The position numbers and the translations under genes are program-made. From NCBI RefSeq assembly GCF_900169565.1, contig NZ_LT828648.1, positions 2,296,876 to 2,360,875 on the forward strand: a stretch of DNA of 64,000 nt. Direction: 5' to 3'. Positions 21,335 to 28,035 of this stretch are shown one piece after another. The DNA comes from Nitrospira japonica. GTDB taxonomy: Bacteria > Nitrospirota > Nitrospiria > Nitrospirales > Nitrospiraceae. Each line of letters opens with the position of its first letter. Position 1 is the stretch's first letter. The notes under the pieces are model-generated. The model was not told where the DNA came from. It did not search any database and saw only the letters and a list, made by a program, of their open reading frames with translations.

Positions 21335-21805
21335 ATGATCCAGATGCTATCGAAGTACGGGACGATTGCCCTGGTGGGACTGCTCGTGTGTGCCGTGCGA
21401 TTCTTGTTGAGGTGGAAGAGTCTCCCCAACGTCTTGGGCATGCTCGATCGTGGGGCACTGGCAGCCGGCCGCGATCTCGCCACATTGGAACATCGAGTCT
21501 ACTATCTGGATCGCTGGCTGGAACTCCTTCCCTATAACACCAAGGGCAACTGTTTTCCTCGGGCCGTGACGCTCTATTGGCTGGCCAGACGCGCCGGCTG
21601 TCCCGTGCGATTGCACTGTGGGATCAAGCGAGAGGGGTTGAAGCTCGACGGCCATGCATGGCTCACGCTCGATCGGGAACCGTTTCACGAGCCGAGCGAC
21701 CAATGGCGACAGTACGCTGTGACCTTCTCGTATCCCGAGCTCACGGTGAGTGAGGAGGGCACTCACAGCCGGCCTACTCCGACCGATTCCGCACGCGTGG
21801 CCTGA
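21335..21805 (+). CDS. lasso-peptide B2-type transglutaminase-like cysteine protease
   Basis: B2 proteins are cysteine proteases that remove the leader from lasso-peptide precursors. This 156-residue protein has one N-terminal membrane segment (GTIALVGLLVCAVRFLL) and then the B2 core: catalytic Cys in KGNCFPRAVTLYWLARRAG and His in LDGHAWLTLD, with RLHCGIKREG between. Length and spacing fit the family. It is the first gene of a plus-strand cluster with a PqqD-like protein, a YxxP-leader peptide, ATP-grasp enzymes, an HPr-kinase-like protein and a nucleotidyltransferase. The start at 21335 is chosen over upstream open frame because the protein family begins near its membrane helix. Confidence 0.82.
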   Translation: MIQMLSKYGTIALVGLLVCAVRFLLRWKSLPNVLGMLDRGALAAGRDLATLEHRVYYLDRWLELLPYNTKGNCFPRAVTLYWLARRAGCPVRLHCGIKREGLKLDGHAWLTLDREPFHEPSDQWRQYAVTFSYPELTVSEEGTHSRPTPTDSARVA

Positions 21806-22064
21806 CGGCCGCATCCTCGCCACACTTCTTCAAGATTCTTCTTCCCGAGCAACGTTCGCCACCGTCTCGAACAGCGTCTCCGCATGGTTCGGTGTCTCGC
21901 TCCAAGCAGTACTACTGACCTGCCTAAGTAGGGCCGGATCCCTGCTTCCAGGGAGCTAGGAAATATCAGGATCCTGAACTACTCTGCCAAAAAGTTGGCG
22001 CGGCCTTTCAGGCAGGCGCAGTGGAGCGGAAGGCGATCCGATCTTGAAGGGAGAATCCTCGAGC
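21806..22064. other. gap inside the RiPP-like cluster with a hairpin
   Basis: No convincing gene is seen. The hairpin TCCCTG-cttc-CAGGGA (21939-21954) sits in this gap, and GGATCC occurs twice around it. No T-run follows, so it is more likely a structural or attenuating element than a strong terminator. Confidence 0.35.
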
Positions 22065-23060
22065 GTGGTACTGGTGCTGGCCGATACGACCGATCCCTGG
22101 GCGTCGCTGGTACACGCGGAACTGTGCAGGCGTGGATTGGACGTACTCCTCATCCCCCGGGCCGAACTCCTGGACAGAATCCGGCTGAATTGGCCGATGG
22201 CGGCCGGCTCACCGACCGTGGCGGGTACGATGGTCATCGACGGCCGCTCTTTTGAGTGCGGTGCCCTTCGAGGCGTGTTCGTCCAGTGGGTCCTGCCGCT
22301 TCCGCTGCTTCTCGACGATCTCTCCGTCCAGGATCGTGATTACGTCCTCCGTGAGACCACGGCGGCGTGGATTGCCTTCTTGAACAGCCTTCCTTGCCCG
22401 GTGATCAACCGGCCGGTGCCGGGAGGACGTCCGGCTCTGCTCGGAGGCAGCGCGGTCTCTGCGCAGATCGCACGTGATTGCGGGTTCGATCTTCCGGCTG
22501 CCCGGTACACGTCGAGTGAGGCCGACGCCGTTCTGCAATTTGCGGCCTGGAACGAGCAGGCGTACCTCAAGGCGTTGGGGTCGGCGGAGCCGGGAGTCGT
22601 TCTCAGTCGGCAGAATGGGATCGAGCACATCCGTCAGGTGATGGAGCGCCATGCCGTCTCGCTCCAGGCGATTCCGCAAGGTCAACGCATGACCGTCTAT
22701 GTCGTGGGAGGGGACGCGGCCGCGACGATCCTTCACGCGGATGAAGAATCGTCGCAACGTACCGCCGATCTGCCGGTATTTCCGACCGGGCGTTGCGTGG
22801 ACCTGGTCCGCGCGCTGGGTTTGAGTTTTGCCGAATGCCACGTCGTGGTCGCTGCCGACGGGCGGATCTGTTGTCTCGATGTGAACGGTGCTCCCAATTA
22901 TTGGCGCTGCACCAGGGCGGTGCAGCGCCGGCTCGTGCAGCGTCTTGCCGATTGTTTGTCGGAAGAGAGGAGTATGGCATTTTATGATTCTGCTCGTGGG
23001 ACCCATGGCGGATCCGGTGCTGGCCAACGTCTGTGCCAGACTGGCGGTCCGGAACGCTGA
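22065..23060 (+). CDS. ATP-grasp-fold protein, divergent (RiPP-like cluster)
   Basis: The protein (331 residues) looks like a diverged relative of the ATP-grasp protein encoded next to it. It has a Rossmann-like N-terminus (VVLVLADTTDPWASLVHAEL), a central INRPVPGGRPALLGGS, and a C-terminal CCLDVNGAPNYWRC that corresponds to the metal-binding acidic/Asn strand (EVN in the neighbour, DVN here). The usual ATP-lysines are hard to assign, so it may be a partner or a weak enzyme. GTG 22065 is preferred because AAGGGAGA lies 9 nt upstream; a TTG at 22044 is possible. Its last 77 bases overlap the next gene and the final 25 or so residues look like read-through of that overlap. Confidence 0.65.
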   Translation: MVLVLADTTDPWASLVHAELCRRGLDVLLIPRAELLDRIRLNWPMAAGSPTVAGTMVIDGRSFECGALRGVFVQWVLPLPLLLDDLSVQDRDYVLRETTAAWIAFLNSLPCPVINRPVPGGRPALLGGSAVSAQIARDCGFDLPAARYTSSEADAVLQFAAWNEQAYLKALGSAEPGVVLSRQNGIEHIRQVMERHAVSLQAIPQGQRMTVYVVGGDAAATILHADEESSQRTADLPVFPTGRCVDLVRALGLSFAECHVVVAADGRICCLDVNGAPNYWRCTRAVQRRLVQRLADCLSEERSMAFYDSARGTHGGSGAGQRLCQTGGPER

Positions 23061-23883
23061 CTTGATGCTCGTCCATCCGGATGCCGACGGCGACACGTGG
23101 AATCTGTCGTGGGCGATCGAAGACGGCTGCGTCTCGGACCGGATCGGGCTGGGGAATCGGATCGTCCGTGGGTCCGACATCGAGTCCGTCTACCTTCGCG
23201 CGATGACCAGCCGTGACACCTCCATGCAGGCCGCGCGGATGGCCGTCACGTCGCTGTGGGAGTTCGCGGAGAGCCTTCCGGTCCTCGTCGTGAATCGAAG
23301 GCAGGCCTCGCACACCAACATGTCGAAGCCCTATCAGCTGCAGCTGATCGAACGGTACGGGTTTCGAGTTCCCAAGACCCTGGTCACGATGGTGCCGGAG
23401 CAAGCCCGTGCCTTTTACGATGAGTGTGGCGGCCGTGTCATCTACAAGTCGATCAGCTCCGAGCGATCGATCGTGAAACGGCTGACCCCCGACGATTTCG
23501 CGCGGCTGGACTTGGTGCGGGAATGCCCCACGCAGTTTCAAGAGATGATTCCCGGCACGGACCTGCGGGTGCATACGGTCGGGGACCGACTTTTCGCAAC
23601 CGAGGTGGTCTCCGACGGCGTCGACTATCGGTACGCGGCGGATGAGGGCGGCCGCCGAAGCATGCGCGCCGTCGAGTTGCCTCCGGCGATCCATGCCCGC
23701 TGTCTGGATCTCGTCGGCGGGATCGGGTTGAGCCTCAGCGGAATCGATCTTCGCCGGACGCCTGACGGCTCCTACTATTGCTTCGAAGTGAACACAAGTC
23801 CGGCGTTTACGTTGTTCGAAAATCATACGGGTCAGCGGATCGGCGACGCCCTGGCGGACTTGCTCCTTACGGGAACCGCCTGA
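22984..23883 (+). CDS. RimK/graspetide-ligase-like ATP-grasp enzyme
   Basis: ATP-grasp ligases activate carboxylates as acyl phosphates and join them to amines or hydroxyls; relatives act on ribosomal peptides such as microviridins. This 299-residue protein has the full pattern: NRRQASHTNMSKPYQLQLIE, GGRVIYKSIS with ATP-binding Lys, QFQEMIPGTDLRVHTVG, LSGIDLRRTPDG and the metal-binding CFEVNTSPAF. It should be active. Substrate is not known; the charged 39-residue peptide encoded 565 bp downstream is the natural candidate. GAGAGGAG lies upstream of the ATG, inside the previous gene. Confidence 0.8.
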   Translation: MILLVGPMADPVLANVCARLAVRNADLMLVHPDADGDTWNLSWAIEDGCVSDRIGLGNRIVRGSDIESVYLRAMTSRDTSMQAARMAVTSLWEFAESLPVLVVNRRQASHTNMSKPYQLQLIERYGFRVPKTLVTMVPEQARAFYDECGGRVIYKSISSERSIVKRLTPDDFARLDLVRECPTQFQEMIPGTDLRVHTVGDRLFATEVVSDGVDYRYAADEGGRRSMRAVELPPAIHARCLDLVGGIGLSLSGIDLRRTPDGSYYCFEVNTSPAFTLFENHTGQRIGDALADLLLTGTA

Positions 23884-23985
23884 GGGCGACTGAAGAGACG
23901 GGCACGCGGGGCCGGTGGCAGGAAGGTGAATGGAAGTCCGCCGGCCATGGGATGCGGACGAGACGGAAAAGGAGGAGCGTCGATC

Positions 23986-24441
23986 ATGAGCAGACAACCC
24001 TTCATTACAGCAGACTTGAGGCCGGATGTGTCGGAGGATGACGCGGAGCAGGCGCACGTCGGTGGTTCAGCCGGCACAGAACAATTGGCCGAAGCCGCCC
24101 GCGCCCTGCTCAGCGAAGAGGAGCGGCAGCAAGTCGAACGCGGTGACCAAGGCAAGCGCCAGGAGTTGATGGCCTCGATCCCGCGGGCCAGCACGAACGT
24201 GCAGGGCACGACGCTGGACGGGGAGACCGTGCTGTTGGATTTCACCAGCGGACGGTACTACACGCTCAATCGGGTCGGGTCCGCCGTCTGGGAGCACTGT
24301 ACCGGGAGCGAATCGCTGCAGGACATTCACGAGGGGCTGTGCGCCAGATACGACGCGGCGCCCGAGCGCATTGCCGACGATCTTCTGGCTCTCGTCACCC
24401 AATTGGGTCACGAGGGACTCTTAACACTGGAAAGGAGGTGA
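23986..24441 (+). CDS. PqqD-like peptide-recognition (RRE/B1) protein
   Basis: PqqD-like domains bind the leader of ribosomal peptide precursors and present it to modifying enzymes; in lasso systems they are called B1. The C-terminal 85 residues fit: VLLDFTSGRYYTLNRVGSAV, DIHEGLCARYD, and DDLLALVTQLGHEGLL. An extra N-terminal stretch of about 65 residues is acidic and helical (EQLAEAARALLSEEERQQVE). GGAGGAG precedes the ATG. The stop lies only 6 bp before the precursor peptide gene, and the precursor's ribosome binding site is inside this gene's end. Confidence 0.85.
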   Translation: MSRQPFITADLRPDVSEDDAEQAHVGGSAGTEQLAEAARALLSEEERQQVERGDQGKRQELMASIPRASTNVQGTTLDGETVLLDFTSGRYYTLNRVGSAVWEHCTGSESLQDIHEGLCARYDAAPERIADDLLALVTQLGHEGLLTLERR

Positions 24442-24447
24442 AGAAGA

Positions 24448-24567
24448 ATGGATGCTCAACAGAAGGAATCCTATACGGAGCCTGTGTTGATGGCGCACGA
24501 ATTGCTGCGCGACATCACCGGCAGCAAGTACCGGGAGAAGTATCGCGACAAGGTCAACGATAACTAA
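24448..24567 (+). CDS. candidate RiPP precursor peptide, 39 aa
   Basis: This short gene has the best ribosome binding site in the window (AAAGGAGGTG, 7 nt before the ATG). The N-terminal part follows the lasso leader rule in exact spacing: Tyr9-x-x-Pro12-x-Leu14 and Thr24 fifteen residues after Tyr9 (ESYTEPVLMAHELLRDITG); the usual Gly at position 18 is Glu. If cleavage follows Gly25, as lasso rules predict with Thr at -2, the core is SKYREKYRDKVNDN. The core repeats KYRE, KYRD, K and is highly charged. In that numbering core residue 9 is Asp, a permitted macrolactam acceptor. It lies 6 bp after the PqqD-like gene. Its role as precursor is inference from context and leader pattern. Confidence 0.75.
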   Translation: MDAQQKESYTEPVLMAHELLRDITGSKYREKYRDKVNDN

Positions 24568-24664
24568 TTGTGTTCCGACCTTGCCGTCATTCCATGGCTG
24601 GCCGGTCTCTGAAGATCGGCCAGCTACTGGTGGCATCAGAGCGAGCAACAAGAAGAGGTGCGAG

Positions 24665-25699
24665 ATGATCGAAGCGAAGCCGGTGCAGGACTATCTGTTC
24701 GCATTCCATGGAATCGAATTGCACTATCACGCGTCGTCCGTGACGCTGGCGGAGCCAGTCCTGGCGTTTCTTCGGCACTACCGGAGCGAGTCCGCCTCCG
24801 AGAAAACAGTCCTGACGGTTCGCTTCGAGGAGGTCCGCAGCACGGCGGATATCCCCTATCGCATATCCAAGACGTCGAAAACGTTGTTTTCCGGAACCAG
24901 ACCGGCCATGGGCGATTCCCTGCGGTCGATCTGGCGTTGTGACGTGGTACAGGACAGAGACCGGCTGGTCGCCGATTTCCATGATCAAGGCCTCTTGGTG
25001 ATCGATGGGGTGCTCGGAACGGCCGAAGGCTATTTCATCAATCCAGAGGCCATGCACGCGGACGTCCGCACGAGCTTTTTTCATTTCGCGCTCTCGGAAC
25101 TTCTCAAGCGGCGGGGCTTGTTCACGGTCCATGCCACCGCCTTGGAGTTTCAAGGTCGCGGGGTATTGATTCCCGGTTACAGCGGTCAAGGCAAGACAAC
25201 GGCGTTTCTATCCCTGCTTCGTTCGGGCTTTCATTATTTGTCCGATGATTACCCGTTGATCCGAGACCTCGGCGGTCACATGGAACTCCTGGCGTTTCCG
25301 ATGAAGATCGATGTCACCGACCATAGCGTGGAGTTTTTCCCGGAACTCAGAACGGCGCCGACCGGATTGTTGCAGCAGGGAATCTGCAAGAAATTCTTCC
25401 ATGCCGAAGATCTGTACGAGAATTCCATCGGCACGTCGTGCGTGCCGGCCATCATCATGTTTCCCCACGTCGTCGACATGCCGCACAGCTGCCTCGAACC
25501 CCTGGCAAAAAGCCGCGCCCTGGAGGCGCTCATGCCTCAGGGATTGCTGGTCTACGATCAGGAGGTGGCGCGGCGCGAGTTTCATGCCCTGTCGAAACTG
25601 GTCCAGCAGACGGACTGCTATCGCCTGCATTTCGGGCGCGATATCCTGGATCTGCCGGACTTGATCAAGCCTCTCCTGGAGCTGCGCAAGAGCGCGTAA
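24665..25699 (+). CDS. HPr-kinase-like protein of RiPP clusters
   Basis: The 344-residue protein belongs to the HPr kinase/phosphorylase-like P-loop group often found with PqqD-like proteins; one such homologue phosphorylates the lasso peptide paeninodin. The N-terminal half is unassigned. The kinase half has the Walker A motif IPGYSGQGKTT near 180 and YLSDDYPLI (the acidic strand after it), with FTVHATALEF in front. The predicted core peptide ends in Asn rather than Ser, so a paeninodin-like C-terminal Ser phosphorylation is not possible here. AAGAGGTG lies close before the ATG at 24665. It is 97 bp after the precursor gene and 6 bp before the next one. Confidence 0.8.
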   Translation: MIEAKPVQDYLFAFHGIELHYHASSVTLAEPVLAFLRHYRSESASEKTVLTVRFEEVRSTADIPYRISKTSKTLFSGTRPAMGDSLRSIWRCDVVQDRDRLVADFHDQGLLVIDGVLGTAEGYFINPEAMHADVRTSFFHFALSELLKRRGLFTVHATALEFQGRGVLIPGYSGQGKTTAFLSLLRSGFHYLSDDYPLIRDLGGHMELLAFPMKIDVTDHSVEFFPELRTAPTGLLQQGICKKFFHAEDLYENSIGTSCVPAIIMFPHVVDMPHSCLEPLAKSRALEALMPQGLLVYDQEVARREFHALSKLVQQTDCYRLHFGRDILDLPDLIKPLLELRKSA

Positions 25700-25705
25700 A
25701 CAGCC

Positions 25706-26743
25706 ATGGCGATTGACGCGATCACCTGGTTCGTCGAGCGGGCGGCCGAGTACGGCTTGGAGGCCGTCTCGTCCTGGTCGAATGTCCGGGCCGCGCTTGC
25801 CCAGATTCCCCTGGCGATTCTGGACCTGTCCCACCCGCTGGCCTGGCCCTATCTATTGTCCAGCCTGGTGATCGCTTGGATCCTGTTTCTGGCGGTGAAG
25901 CGGCGCGGTGAGACGGAGTGCCGATCATTCGTAGAGTTTGCGTTTCCCGCGCGGCTGTATCGGCACCCTTCGACGAGGCTGGACTGGAAATTCGGTATCT
26001 GTGACCTGACGCTTCAATTCCTGCTGTACACGCCGGTCATGACTGGCATGGGTCTGCTCGGCGCGAAGGCCATGACGGCGTTGCTCGTCGGGAGTTGGGG
26101 TTGGGAGCCGCCGCACACCCTGTCTGTCACGGGAATCGCGGCTGCGGCGGTGGGATGGTTCGTGCTGCACGACTTCGTCAATTACTGCACTCACGTGTTG
26201 TTTCATCGGATCCCGCTGCTCTGGTCGTTTCATCGGGTTCACCATTCGGCGGAGGTGTTGACGCCGGCCGCGGCGTTCCGAGTGCATCCGGTCGAGCTGC
26301 TCGCCTTCGCGGCGATTCAAGCGCCCGTCTTGGGCACGGCCGCGGTGTTGTACCAGAATATCCTGGGAGAGGAGCAGCGGATCACCATGGTGTTCGGGGT
26401 GAGCGTCTTCACGTTCGTCTCCGGCATCCTGGGCTCGCACTTGCGGCATTCTCACGTGTGGTTTTCCTACGGACCGGTATTGAATCGAGTCTTCATGAGC
26501 CCCGCGCATCATCAGATTCATCATAGCGTGGACGCGCATCATTGGAACAAGAACTTCGCGGTCAAGCTGGCCGTCTGGGATGCGCTGTTCGGCACGTTAT
26601 ACCTACCGGGGAGGCGGGAAGCATTGAGCGTCGGCCTTCCCGATGCCGACCGCCGGGAGTTCACATCCGTATCCGGACTCTATCTGTCGCCGTTCGTGAG
26701 GGCGTTTCAGGCGCTGGTGCCCATAGAAAGCAGGAGGGGATGA
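25706..26743 (+). CDS. fatty acid hydroxylase / sterol desaturase family membrane di-iron enzyme
   Basis: The 345-residue membrane protein has four to six hydrophobic helices and the family's histidine boxes: HDFVNYCTHVLFH, HRVHH and HHQIHH, which bind a non-haem di-iron centre for O2-dependent hydroxylation or desaturation. Such enzymes act on lipids or other hydrophobic substrates; the substrate here is unknown. It sits between the HPr-kinase-like gene (6 bp gap) and the nucleotidyltransferase gene (4-bp overlap), so it belongs to the RiPP-like operon. It might modify the peptide or an attached lipid, or simply be co-transcribed. Confidence 0.85.
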   Translation: MAIDAITWFVERAAEYGLEAVSSWSNVRAALAQIPLAILDLSHPLAWPYLLSSLVIAWILFLAVKRRGETECRSFVEFAFPARLYRHPSTRLDWKFGICDLTLQFLLYTPVMTGMGLLGAKAMTALLVGSWGWEPPHTLSVTGIAAAAVGWFVLHDFVNYCTHVLFHRIPLLWSFHRVHHSAEVLTPAAAFRVHPVELLAFAAIQAPVLGTAAVLYQNILGEEQRITMVFGVSVFTFVSGILGSHLRHSHVWFSYGPVLNRVFMSPAHHQIHHSVDAHHWNKNFAVKLAVWDALFGTLYLPGRREALSVGLPDADRREFTSVSGLYLSPFVRAFQALVPIESRRG

Positions 26744-28035
26744 TGCAGGAATCGTCTGAACAGCTGGTGACCCCGCTCGCTCCAATTTTGGGATTTAAGA
26801 GGACGCCGACTTCGTCCTGGTTTCCCGAGGCGAGATTCATCCTGTTGTGCGCCCGCACATCCCTGAGCGATGCGGTTCGGCAGCGCGTCAGAGAAACGGC
26901 TCTGGAACTGCTCGATTGGTCGCTGGTGCTGGACCTCGCGCGGTTTCACGGGGTCGGTCCGTTGCTGTGGCGGTCGATCTCCGCAACCTGCGCGGATCTG
27001 GTGCCGCCCGCGGCTCTGACGGCGCTTCGCCAAGTGACGCAGGCCGGTACGCTGCTGAACGGTGCGTTGGTCCGCGAGACGGTCCGGATCAGCCGGGCAT
27101 TCGAAGAGCGGGGCCTGCCGGCCATTCCGTTCAAGGGGGCCGCGCTCGCCGCGGTGGCGTACAAGGACGCCAACCTTCGGGATTTCGACGATCTGGATTT
27201 CATCGTGCCGCAAGCCCGTCTGGCCGAGGCGCAGGACATCCTGACGGCTCATGGATATCGGCCCCTGAGTCAGTCCCGCGAGTCCTTTCAGGCTGCGCAC
27301 TACCACGAGCCCTACCATTTGTATGTGCATGAGACGAGCCGTTTGCTGGTGGATCTGCAATGGGTCATGGCCCATGAACAGTTCTCGTTCCGCCTGGACC
27401 GCCCCGACATTTGGGACCGGCGGATGTCCCTGTCGGTCGAGGGAGGGCGGATCAGCACCATCGCTCCCGAGGAACTGTTGATCATCTTGTGCGTGCACGG
27501 ATCGAAGCATGCGTGGGAACGGCTGAAGTGGGTCGTGGACGTGGCCGCGCTGATCCGGGCGCAATCGCCGGACTGGGACCGGGTGCTTTCCACGGCGAAC
27601 CGGTGGAAGTGCCGCCGCATGGTGTTGCTTGGCTTGAGACAGGCGCAGCAGATGATGAATGCGGAGCTGCCTCCTGCGATCTGGACGGCGATCCGGGCAG
27701 ACGCCGACGTGCTGGATTTGGCGGCGCGCATGCCGAAAAGCCTGCTCTTCAACCAGCAGGACGGCATCGACGAGCACGACGGGCCCGCGCTGTACTATGC
27801 GCTGAAAGATACGATACTGGAGCAGTGGCGCTATGCGCTCGAGCTTTGCCGCGACGAACATCGGGTGGTCTATGATGCGCCCGAATGGCTCCGTCATCGC
27901 CGGTTCCTTCGGCAATTGGCGCGCGCGATACAACCGGTCCGGTCGTGGATCGTCAAATTGCCTTTGGCCAAGCAGGCGCGCCGCGGGATGGCCCGTCTTA
28001 CGGGGCGCGTCGGAACCGCCGATCTTCGATGCTGA
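26740..28035 (+). CDS. nucleotidyltransferase family protein (NTP_transf_5-like)
   Basis: The 431-residue protein matches the uncharacterised nucleotidyltransferase family that is frequent in lasso-peptide clusters with HPr-kinase-like genes. The motif FKGAALAAVAYKDANLRDFDDLDFIV near 125-150 gives the Gly-rich loop and the metal-binding D-x-D (shown here in parts). Conserved helices follow (LLIILCVHGSKHAWERLKWVVD). The ATG overlaps the stop of the hydroxylase gene (ATGA). It is the last gene of the cluster; a 156-bp gap with a promoter and hairpins follows. Confidence 0.82.
   Translation: MMQESSEQLVTPLAPILGFKRTPTSSWFPEARFILLCARTSLSDAVRQRVRETALELLDWSLVLDLARFHGVGPLLWRSISATCADLVPPAALTALRQVTQAGTLLNGALVRETVRISRAFEERGLPAIPFKGAALAAVAYKDANLRDFDDLDFIVPQARLAEAQDILTAHGYRPLSQSRESFQAAHYHEPYHLYVHETSRLLVDLQWVMAHEQFSFRLDRPDIWDRRMSLSVEGGRISTIAPEELLIILCVHGSKHAWERLKWVVDVAALIRAQSPDWDRVLSTANRWKCRRMVLLGLRQAQQMMNAELPPAIWTAIRADADVLDLAARMPKSLLFNQQDGIDEHDGPALYYALKDTILEQWRYALELCRDEHRVVYDAPEWLRHRRFLRQLARAIQPVRSWIVKLPLAKQARRGMARLTGRVGTADLRC

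Follow-up and report, generated by a model that had tools for sequence, protein, structure and literature searches.

A Nitrospira gene block that appears to join lasso-type leader handling to graspetide-type ATP-grasp ligases through a leader-binding adaptor

Described relatives and the proposed system

In the ribosomally synthesized and post-translationally modified peptides (RiPPs), leader rules and enzyme sets have been described for several groups. The leaders of lasso peptides follow the rule YxxPxL with a Thr two residues before the core (PMC6784204), and in pseudomycoidin homologues of a kinase and a nucleotidyltransferase phosphorylate and glycosylate the peptide (PMC9266682). The linear polyphosphorylated peptides (LPPs) reported from Bacillota by Popov et al. 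(2026) combine a discrete RiPP recognition element (RRE), an HprK-like kinase, an NTP transferase, an MsbA-like exporter and a YxxP leader with polyphosphorylated Ser; they use a signal-peptidase-like (SpI-like) protease and have neither a macrolactam cyclase nor an ATP-grasp protein (PMC13381572). Among the graspetides, Carter et al. (2026) describe corallotide, in which a TIGR04187 synthetase makes Lys-Asp isopeptides in KxxxD repeats, and rosaritide, whose TIGR04187 synthetase depends on a second protein containing a domain that weakly resembles an RRE (PMC13097080). Here we analyze a block of eight genes at positions 21335-28035 of a stretch of 64,000 nucleotides from Nitrospira japonica (contig NZ_LT828648.1, 2,296,876 to 2,360,875; hereafter the window), which encodes a B2 leader peptidase, two ATP-grasp proteins (AG1 and AG2), an RRE, a 39-residue precursor peptide, an HprK-like kinase, an FA_hydroxylase-family enzyme and an NTP_transf_5 protein.

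The system shares with the LPPs the discrete RRE, the YxxP leader, the kinase, the NTP transferase, the MsbA-like exporter and the lack of a macrolactam cyclase, but differs from them in its B2 protease, its occurrence in Nitrospirota, its ATP-grasp pair and its K-x-x-D/E cores, which have no fixed Ser when encoded with that pair (PMC13381572). With the lasso peptides paeninodin and pseudomycoidin it has in common the RRE (B1), B2, the HprK-like kinase, the NTP transferase and YxxPxL with Thr at -2; unlike them, it has no lasso cyclase and its cores consist of tandem K-x-x-D/E units (PMC9266682). Its likeness to the graspetides lies in AG2, which is of the MdnB/MdnC/PsnB kind, and in a core that pairs an acceptor (Lys) with Asp/Glu in a fixed pattern. 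With corallotide and rosaritide it shares a TIGR04187-like ligase, Lys-Asp units in repeats (corallotide) and dependence on a partner protein (rosaritide), and it differs from them in the lasso-type leader, B2, the PqqD-type RRE with a putative docking motif and the i-to-i+3 spacing (PMC13097080). The precursor leaders carry no graspetide ligase-recognition motif (PFFARFL or Phhx(1,2)h type), and a candidate motif is found on the RRE instead. Johnson et al. (2026) engineered chimeras in which lasso and graspetide enzymes act on one peptide; these constructs are synthetic and are said to have no counterpart observed in nature, whereas here the two recognition systems are apparently joined naturally via the RRE, with no lasso cyclase (PMC13003496). 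This gene combination was not found described in the open literature searched. In the survey of Carter et al., two graspetide groups (33 and 39) include a transglutaminase-fold protein; they may overlap with the present system, which could lessen the novelty of the combination (PMC13097080).

The block is a real, conserved hybrid RiPP system, and its strongest new content lies in the K-x-x-D/E core and the putative docking motif borne by the RRE. We consider it fairly probable that it joins a leader-handling module of lasso/LPP type to a graspetide-type ligase module via the RRE as adaptor, and that the bonds formed are lactams. In the proposed pathway, where the binding events, the kind of bond, the succession of reactions and the final peptide are all predictions, the PqqD-like RRE would bind the YxxPxL leader, and its motif FITADLRPDV would dock on the ATP-grasp pair, acting in trans like the leader motif that graspetide precursors normally carry themselves. 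Together with its degraded partner AG1, AG2 would join each Lys to the Asp or Glu three residues on in an ATP-dependent reaction, so that KYRE-KYRD-KVND would receive as many as three lactams (a mass change of about -54 Da). Phosphorylation and additional decoration of the peptide may be the work of HprK and NTP_transf_5, and B2 would cleave after the residue following the leader Thr. A more far-reaching version appears to us evenly balanced between right and wrong: the RRE would be a two-headed adaptor for a lasso leader and a ligase tag, giving a ladder of i-to-i+3 lactams, and sister ATP-grasp pairs of the same phylum would read the same tag at the end of large proteins and modify their K/E-rich tails.

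If the proposed pathway is correct, recognition and catalysis in RiPPs are separable and can be rewired by shifting a ligase-docking tag from the substrate to an adaptor, which would explain how one leader system is coupled to different chemistries. It would provide a natural blueprint for the lasso-graspetide chimeras now being engineered, place LPP-like pathways without a cyclase in Nitrospira as well as in Bacillota, and lead directly to predictions for the substrate (Lys joined to Asp/Glu, with -18 Da for each unit).

Precursor cores and the ATP-grasp pair

Besides relatives and named genomes, the sample comprised 396 genomes from the phylum. AG1, AG2 and RRE genes together with lasso-leader precursors were found at 17 distinct loci of the order Nitrospirales (the window, L024-L026, L039-L046, L092, L093, L096, L098 and L100). 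Many relatives carry a second RRE-precursor-HprK-NTP_transf_5 set upstream of the ATP-grasp block, here called the upstream set to distinguish it from the ATP-grasp side. Cassettes free of ATP-grasp genes (L116-L118, L120, L122-L128 and L130) came from sampling other B2 genes of the family.

The precursor gene of the window (24448..24567, plus strand like all features given below for the window) has a near-perfect ribosome-binding site (AAAGGAGGTGA; the letters 5' of the ATG are GGAAAGGAGGTGAAGAAGA). Orthologues were found in every relative (E 1e-15 to 1e-24 with a family hidden Markov model), and the pooled ratio of non-synonymous to synonymous polymorphism (pN/pS) over eight pairs was 0.18 in the leader and 0.36 in the core, indicating that the 39-residue peptide is a real gene; it is under purifying selection. 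The 52 homologues in the 17 loci have a common lasso leader frame: a Tyr, rarely replaced by Cys, is followed by Pro at +3, by a hydrophobic residue at +5 (mostly Leu on the ATP-grasp side) and, two positions ahead of the predicted core, by Thr at +15. In the window this motif, YTEPVLMAHELLRDIT, lies at 24472..24519, with Y, P at +3, L at +5 and T at +15. Two segments of L096 (7419-7559 and 9121-9258) hold one decayed leader and core and one ATP-grasp-side core without Lys or acid (GGASGVSGGQCQSTSALNCVL).

The window core reads GS-KYRE-KYRD-KVND-N, and its repeats (24526..24561) are the predicted crosslinking units. The 30 cores of the ATP-grasp side contain 59 K-x-x-[DE] units against 12.3 expected (maximum 23 in 5,000 shuffles), and the 21 upstream-set cores contain 4 against 3.0 expected; the cores share ancestry, so these shuffle values are not probabilities. 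Two or more units were present in 23 of the 30 cores of the ATP-grasp side, in none of the 21 of the upstream set and in none of 19 from ATP-grasp-free cassettes. Moreover, the 15 cores of KYxEK type keep K, E, K and D/E without exception but differ in the intervening residues. This variability within units and the difference between the groups are stronger evidence than the shuffle values. Given this pattern and the Lys-Asp isopeptides in the KxxxD repeats of corallotide (PMC13097080), Lys-Asp/Glu lactams are predicted in the cores of the ATP-grasp side.

The AG2 gene lies at 22984..23883. Its profile matched the solved graspetide ligases PsnB (6e-32), MdnC, PruB (9bou), CdnC, AMdnB and MdnB; matches to RimK-like ligases were much weaker, at about 1e-9 (RimK 9e-10). 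The Lys, the Asp and F-E-V-N are invariant in 17 orthologues; by sequence, AG2 is closest to graspetide ligases and has its active-site residues intact. The fold predicted for AG1 (22044..23060, TTG start uncertain; pLDDT 83) had graspetide ligases as all of its top 31 PDB matches. In most AG1 orthologues D-x-S, G-x-S or a similar sequence stands in place of the E-x-N metal motif, and three lack the ATP-binding Lys; with D-V-N, the copy in the window belongs to the least degraded ones. AG1 is probably a non-catalytic partner of AG2, so that of the two ATP-grasp ligases proposed in the first-pass annotation both stand as ATP-grasp proteins and probably one rather than two is an active ligase. 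Both have the graspetide-type model TIGR04187 as best NCBIfam match, under its cut-off (E=1e-12 for AG1).

RRE extension, related cassettes and alternative readings

The RRE gene (23986..24441), whose product is a putative precursor adaptor, matched PF05402 over cut-off at residues 80-146 (E=7.7e-19). The family named in the first-pass annotation, a PqqD-like recognition protein, is thus right, but the protein is not a plain RRE: RREs of the ATP-grasp side have an N-terminal extension of about 70 residues, modeled as helical and ahead of the RRE fold, that is absent from upstream-set RREs. Within the extension, the motif FI-xxx-LRP-x-[VLM] (FITADLRPDV, 24001..24030 in the window) occurs in 17 of 17 RREs of the ATP-grasp side and in none of 33 RREs from upstream sets, ATP-grasp-free cassettes or lasso clusters. 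Nitrospirota also have nine related ATP-grasp pairs without an RRE in the vicinity, each of which directly follows a gene for a K/E-rich protein (L027 11156-12952; L028 11146-13863; L029 6701-8599; L103 10742-13471; L104 11417-13249; L105 6698-8497; L106 8639-10564; L107 11274-11831; L108 11194-13926). These proteins, mostly of 600-900 residues and of several unrelated kinds (one is truncated by a stretch of N), all have a K/E-rich C-terminal segment followed by a relaxed form of the motif 31-89 residues before the end. The relaxed form, [FY]I...[ELR]RP.[VLM], gave 32 matches against 0.67 by shuffling in 863,301 residues, a figure that covers open reading frames of all six frames, includes some loci twice and refers to a motif defined on the same sequences in which it was counted. 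All 32 were in RREs of the ATP-grasp side or in proteins encoded before ATP-grasp pairs.

From this distribution we infer that the motif is a docking tag of the ATP-grasp pair: on a large substrate it would lie C-terminal to the K/E segment, and in the system of the window it would have moved onto the RRE, which would deliver the small precursor. Such a location is plausible, since a graspetide leader is still functional when positioned after the core (PMC13003496) and the rosaritide synthetase depends on a partner protein (PMC13097080). The large K/E-rich proteins are possible substrates of graspetide-type ligases.

The HprK-like protein (24665..25699), a predicted peptide kinase, matched HprK_rel_A (TIGR04352, 1e-13) and Hpr_kinase_C (1e-5), both under cut-off, and its P-loop and His/Asp motifs are conserved. 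In a midpoint-rooted tree the upstream-set kinases clustered with those of ATP-grasp-free cassettes (100/100), and ten kinases of the ATP-grasp side, including that of the window, formed their own clade (100/99). RRE-precursor-HprK-NTP_transf_5-B2 cassettes without AsnB and ATP-grasp are common in Nitrospiraceae, usually with an ABC exporter. They are close to the LPPs. A Ser follows the leader Thr within six residues in 40 of 40 precursors from upstream sets and ATP-grasp-free cassettes. The cores of the ATP-grasp side have no fixed Ser (12/30).

No AsnB-like cyclase was found in the 64 kb of the window, as the first-pass annotation had stated, and in none of the 17 distinct carrier genomes did the lasso cyclase model NF033535 reach its cut-off, so that a co-occurring cyclase elsewhere, which would have spoken against the hybrid idea, did not appear; a lasso cyclase acting in trans was accordingly rejected. 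A real one would have been detected, since the two highest NF033535 scores (about 410 bits; G418 and G415) fall in separate, complete lasso clusters (L101 and L102), each with its own RRE, B2, AsnB and NTP_transf_5. The N. japonica genome (one contig of 4.08 Mb) has eight full Asn_synthase genes, all outside the window. Seven of the proteins begin MCG and the eighth has VCG, i.e. the glutaminase cysteine, and no B2 or RRE homologue was found in the stretches fetched around the eight genes. The only other PqqD match of the genome adjoins a radical-SAM gene and looks like a PQQ locus. Of the early reading, the conservation of the block, its resemblance to a lasso/graspetide hybrid and the absence of a lasso cyclase serving it are supported.

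Since ATP-grasp-free cassettes also lack a cyclase, its absence is normal here, and the ATP-grasp pair was more likely added to a cassette without cyclase than substituted for a cyclase, the direction of this change being our reading of the comparison. For the same reason the replacement of a formerly present cyclase by ATP-grasp proteins was rejected. The suggestion in the first-pass annotation that ATP-grasp chemistry replaces or bypasses lasso cyclisation was not supported: related cassettes do without both, and the cores suggest several Lys-Asp/Glu side-chain lactams, not one N-terminal ring.

Other readings of the locus have to be weighed against the adaptor pathway. The product might be a linear, LPP-type peptide, phosphorylated and glycosylated or nucleotidylated, to which the ATP-grasp proteins add something else, for instance an amino acid as RimK-like enzymes do, or merely assist. 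RRE, HprK, NTP_transf_5 and exporter are indeed the LPP core set (PMC13381572), and cassettes with the conserved Ser but no ATP-grasp exist in the same family; we nevertheless regard this reading as improbable, because AG2 is much nearer to graspetide ligases than to RimK, K-x-x-[DE] repeats are confined to the ATP-grasp side and the fixed Ser has been lost from its cores. The ATP-grasp proteins might instead form a lasso-like ring after the B2 cut, joining the N-terminal amine to an acid at core position 8 or 9 and so taking the place of the lasso cyclase as the first-pass annotation proposed. Apart from the lasso-like leader and B2, what speaks for such a ring is that an acid occurs at core positions 7-9 in 20 of the 30 ATP-grasp-side cores (Asp at 9 in the window) against 13.1 expected by shuffling, with the leader Thr taken as -2. 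On the other hand, every core with that acid also has K-x-x-[DE], as do seven of the ten without it, and the first residue is frequently Q, V, L, N or T. In addition, the graspetide ligases with solved structures link side chains while the leader is still attached. A ring of this kind thus seems rather improbable.

It also appears quite unlikely that the RRE, as bearer of the tag, is the main substrate of the ATP-grasp proteins, with the small peptides made separately by RRE, HprK and B2. At the nine loci without an RRE the tag and the K/E-rich segment do reside on one protein, but the RRE extension has no core-like K-x-x-[DE] repeats, whereas the precursors have them, and only where the ATP-grasp pair is present. 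That the cluster is decaying or non-functional and retained by chance is very improbable: the window and L024 lack the exporter gene and one L096 precursor copy has decayed, yet gene order is conserved in 17 loci, the motifs of AG2, B2 and HprK are intact and the precursor is under purifying selection.

Some observations weigh against the adaptor pathway with lactam formation. Three cores of the ATP-grasp side have no K-x-x-[DE] unit, one of them no acid at all, and the shared ancestry of the cores limits what their counts convey. AG2 falls under the TIGR04187 cut-off, the kinase has been retained although the cores beside it have no fixed Ser (12 of 30), and the RRE extension itself is a possible substrate rather than a docking tag.

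Conservation and surroundings of the gene block

The first-pass annotation had described one plus-strand block of seven genes and a small peptide gene, and all eight open reading frames and their family calls were confirmed. Its conservation was likewise borne out by the neighborhood search, in which AG1-AG2-RRE-precursor recurred at the 17 loci. The B2 gene (21335..21805), coding for a Cys-His protease of lasso type, scored 41.2 bits with NF033537 (cut-off 33) and 65.5 bits with PF13471 (cut-off 26). It is the only PF13471 gene of the genome, without a second B2, and its Cys/His motifs (GNCFPR, DGHAWL) are invariant or nearly so in 15 orthologues. B2 is encoded in cis at 15 of the 17 loci and on another contig of the same genome at the other two. 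Among the 396 genomes the ATP-grasp block occurred in 15, all of which have B2, against 65 of the 381 others (Fisher p about 1e-11). In several Nitrospira the block is placed between purF and a thioredoxin-like gene.

The two putative tailoring enzymes are an FA_hydroxylase-family membrane enzyme (25706..26743; PF04116, 80 bits) and an NTP_transf_5 nucleotidyltransferase-like enzyme (26740..28035; PF14907, 210 bits). The former is absent in L026, L046 and L100 and is thus not essential; NTP_transf_5 was not found near L046 and L100. PADLOC gave no defence-system match for six of the block proteins, and a defence reading was rejected; no tRNA was found in the window.

In most relatives an ABC exporter gene lies between B2 and AG1. 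In the window (21806-22043) and in L024 (11052-11295) it is missing there and about 240 bp are left. This gap was rejected as an exporter remnant, since tblastn gave no match and only a conserved non-coding block was present. That block (21927..21998, 5' of AG1) has many invariant columns in an alignment with 11 relatives and a CTAC...GTAG dyad, making it a possible promoter or operator. A structured RNA was rejected, as there was one five-pair hairpin and no covariation, and the window gave no Rfam match. In two more distant relatives, L026 (6160-8628) and L046 (5615-7918), genes for a GMC-type oxidoreductase and its small partner occupy the space between B2 and AG1; they may provide a different oxidative tailoring step at these two loci, where no FA_hydroxylase was found.

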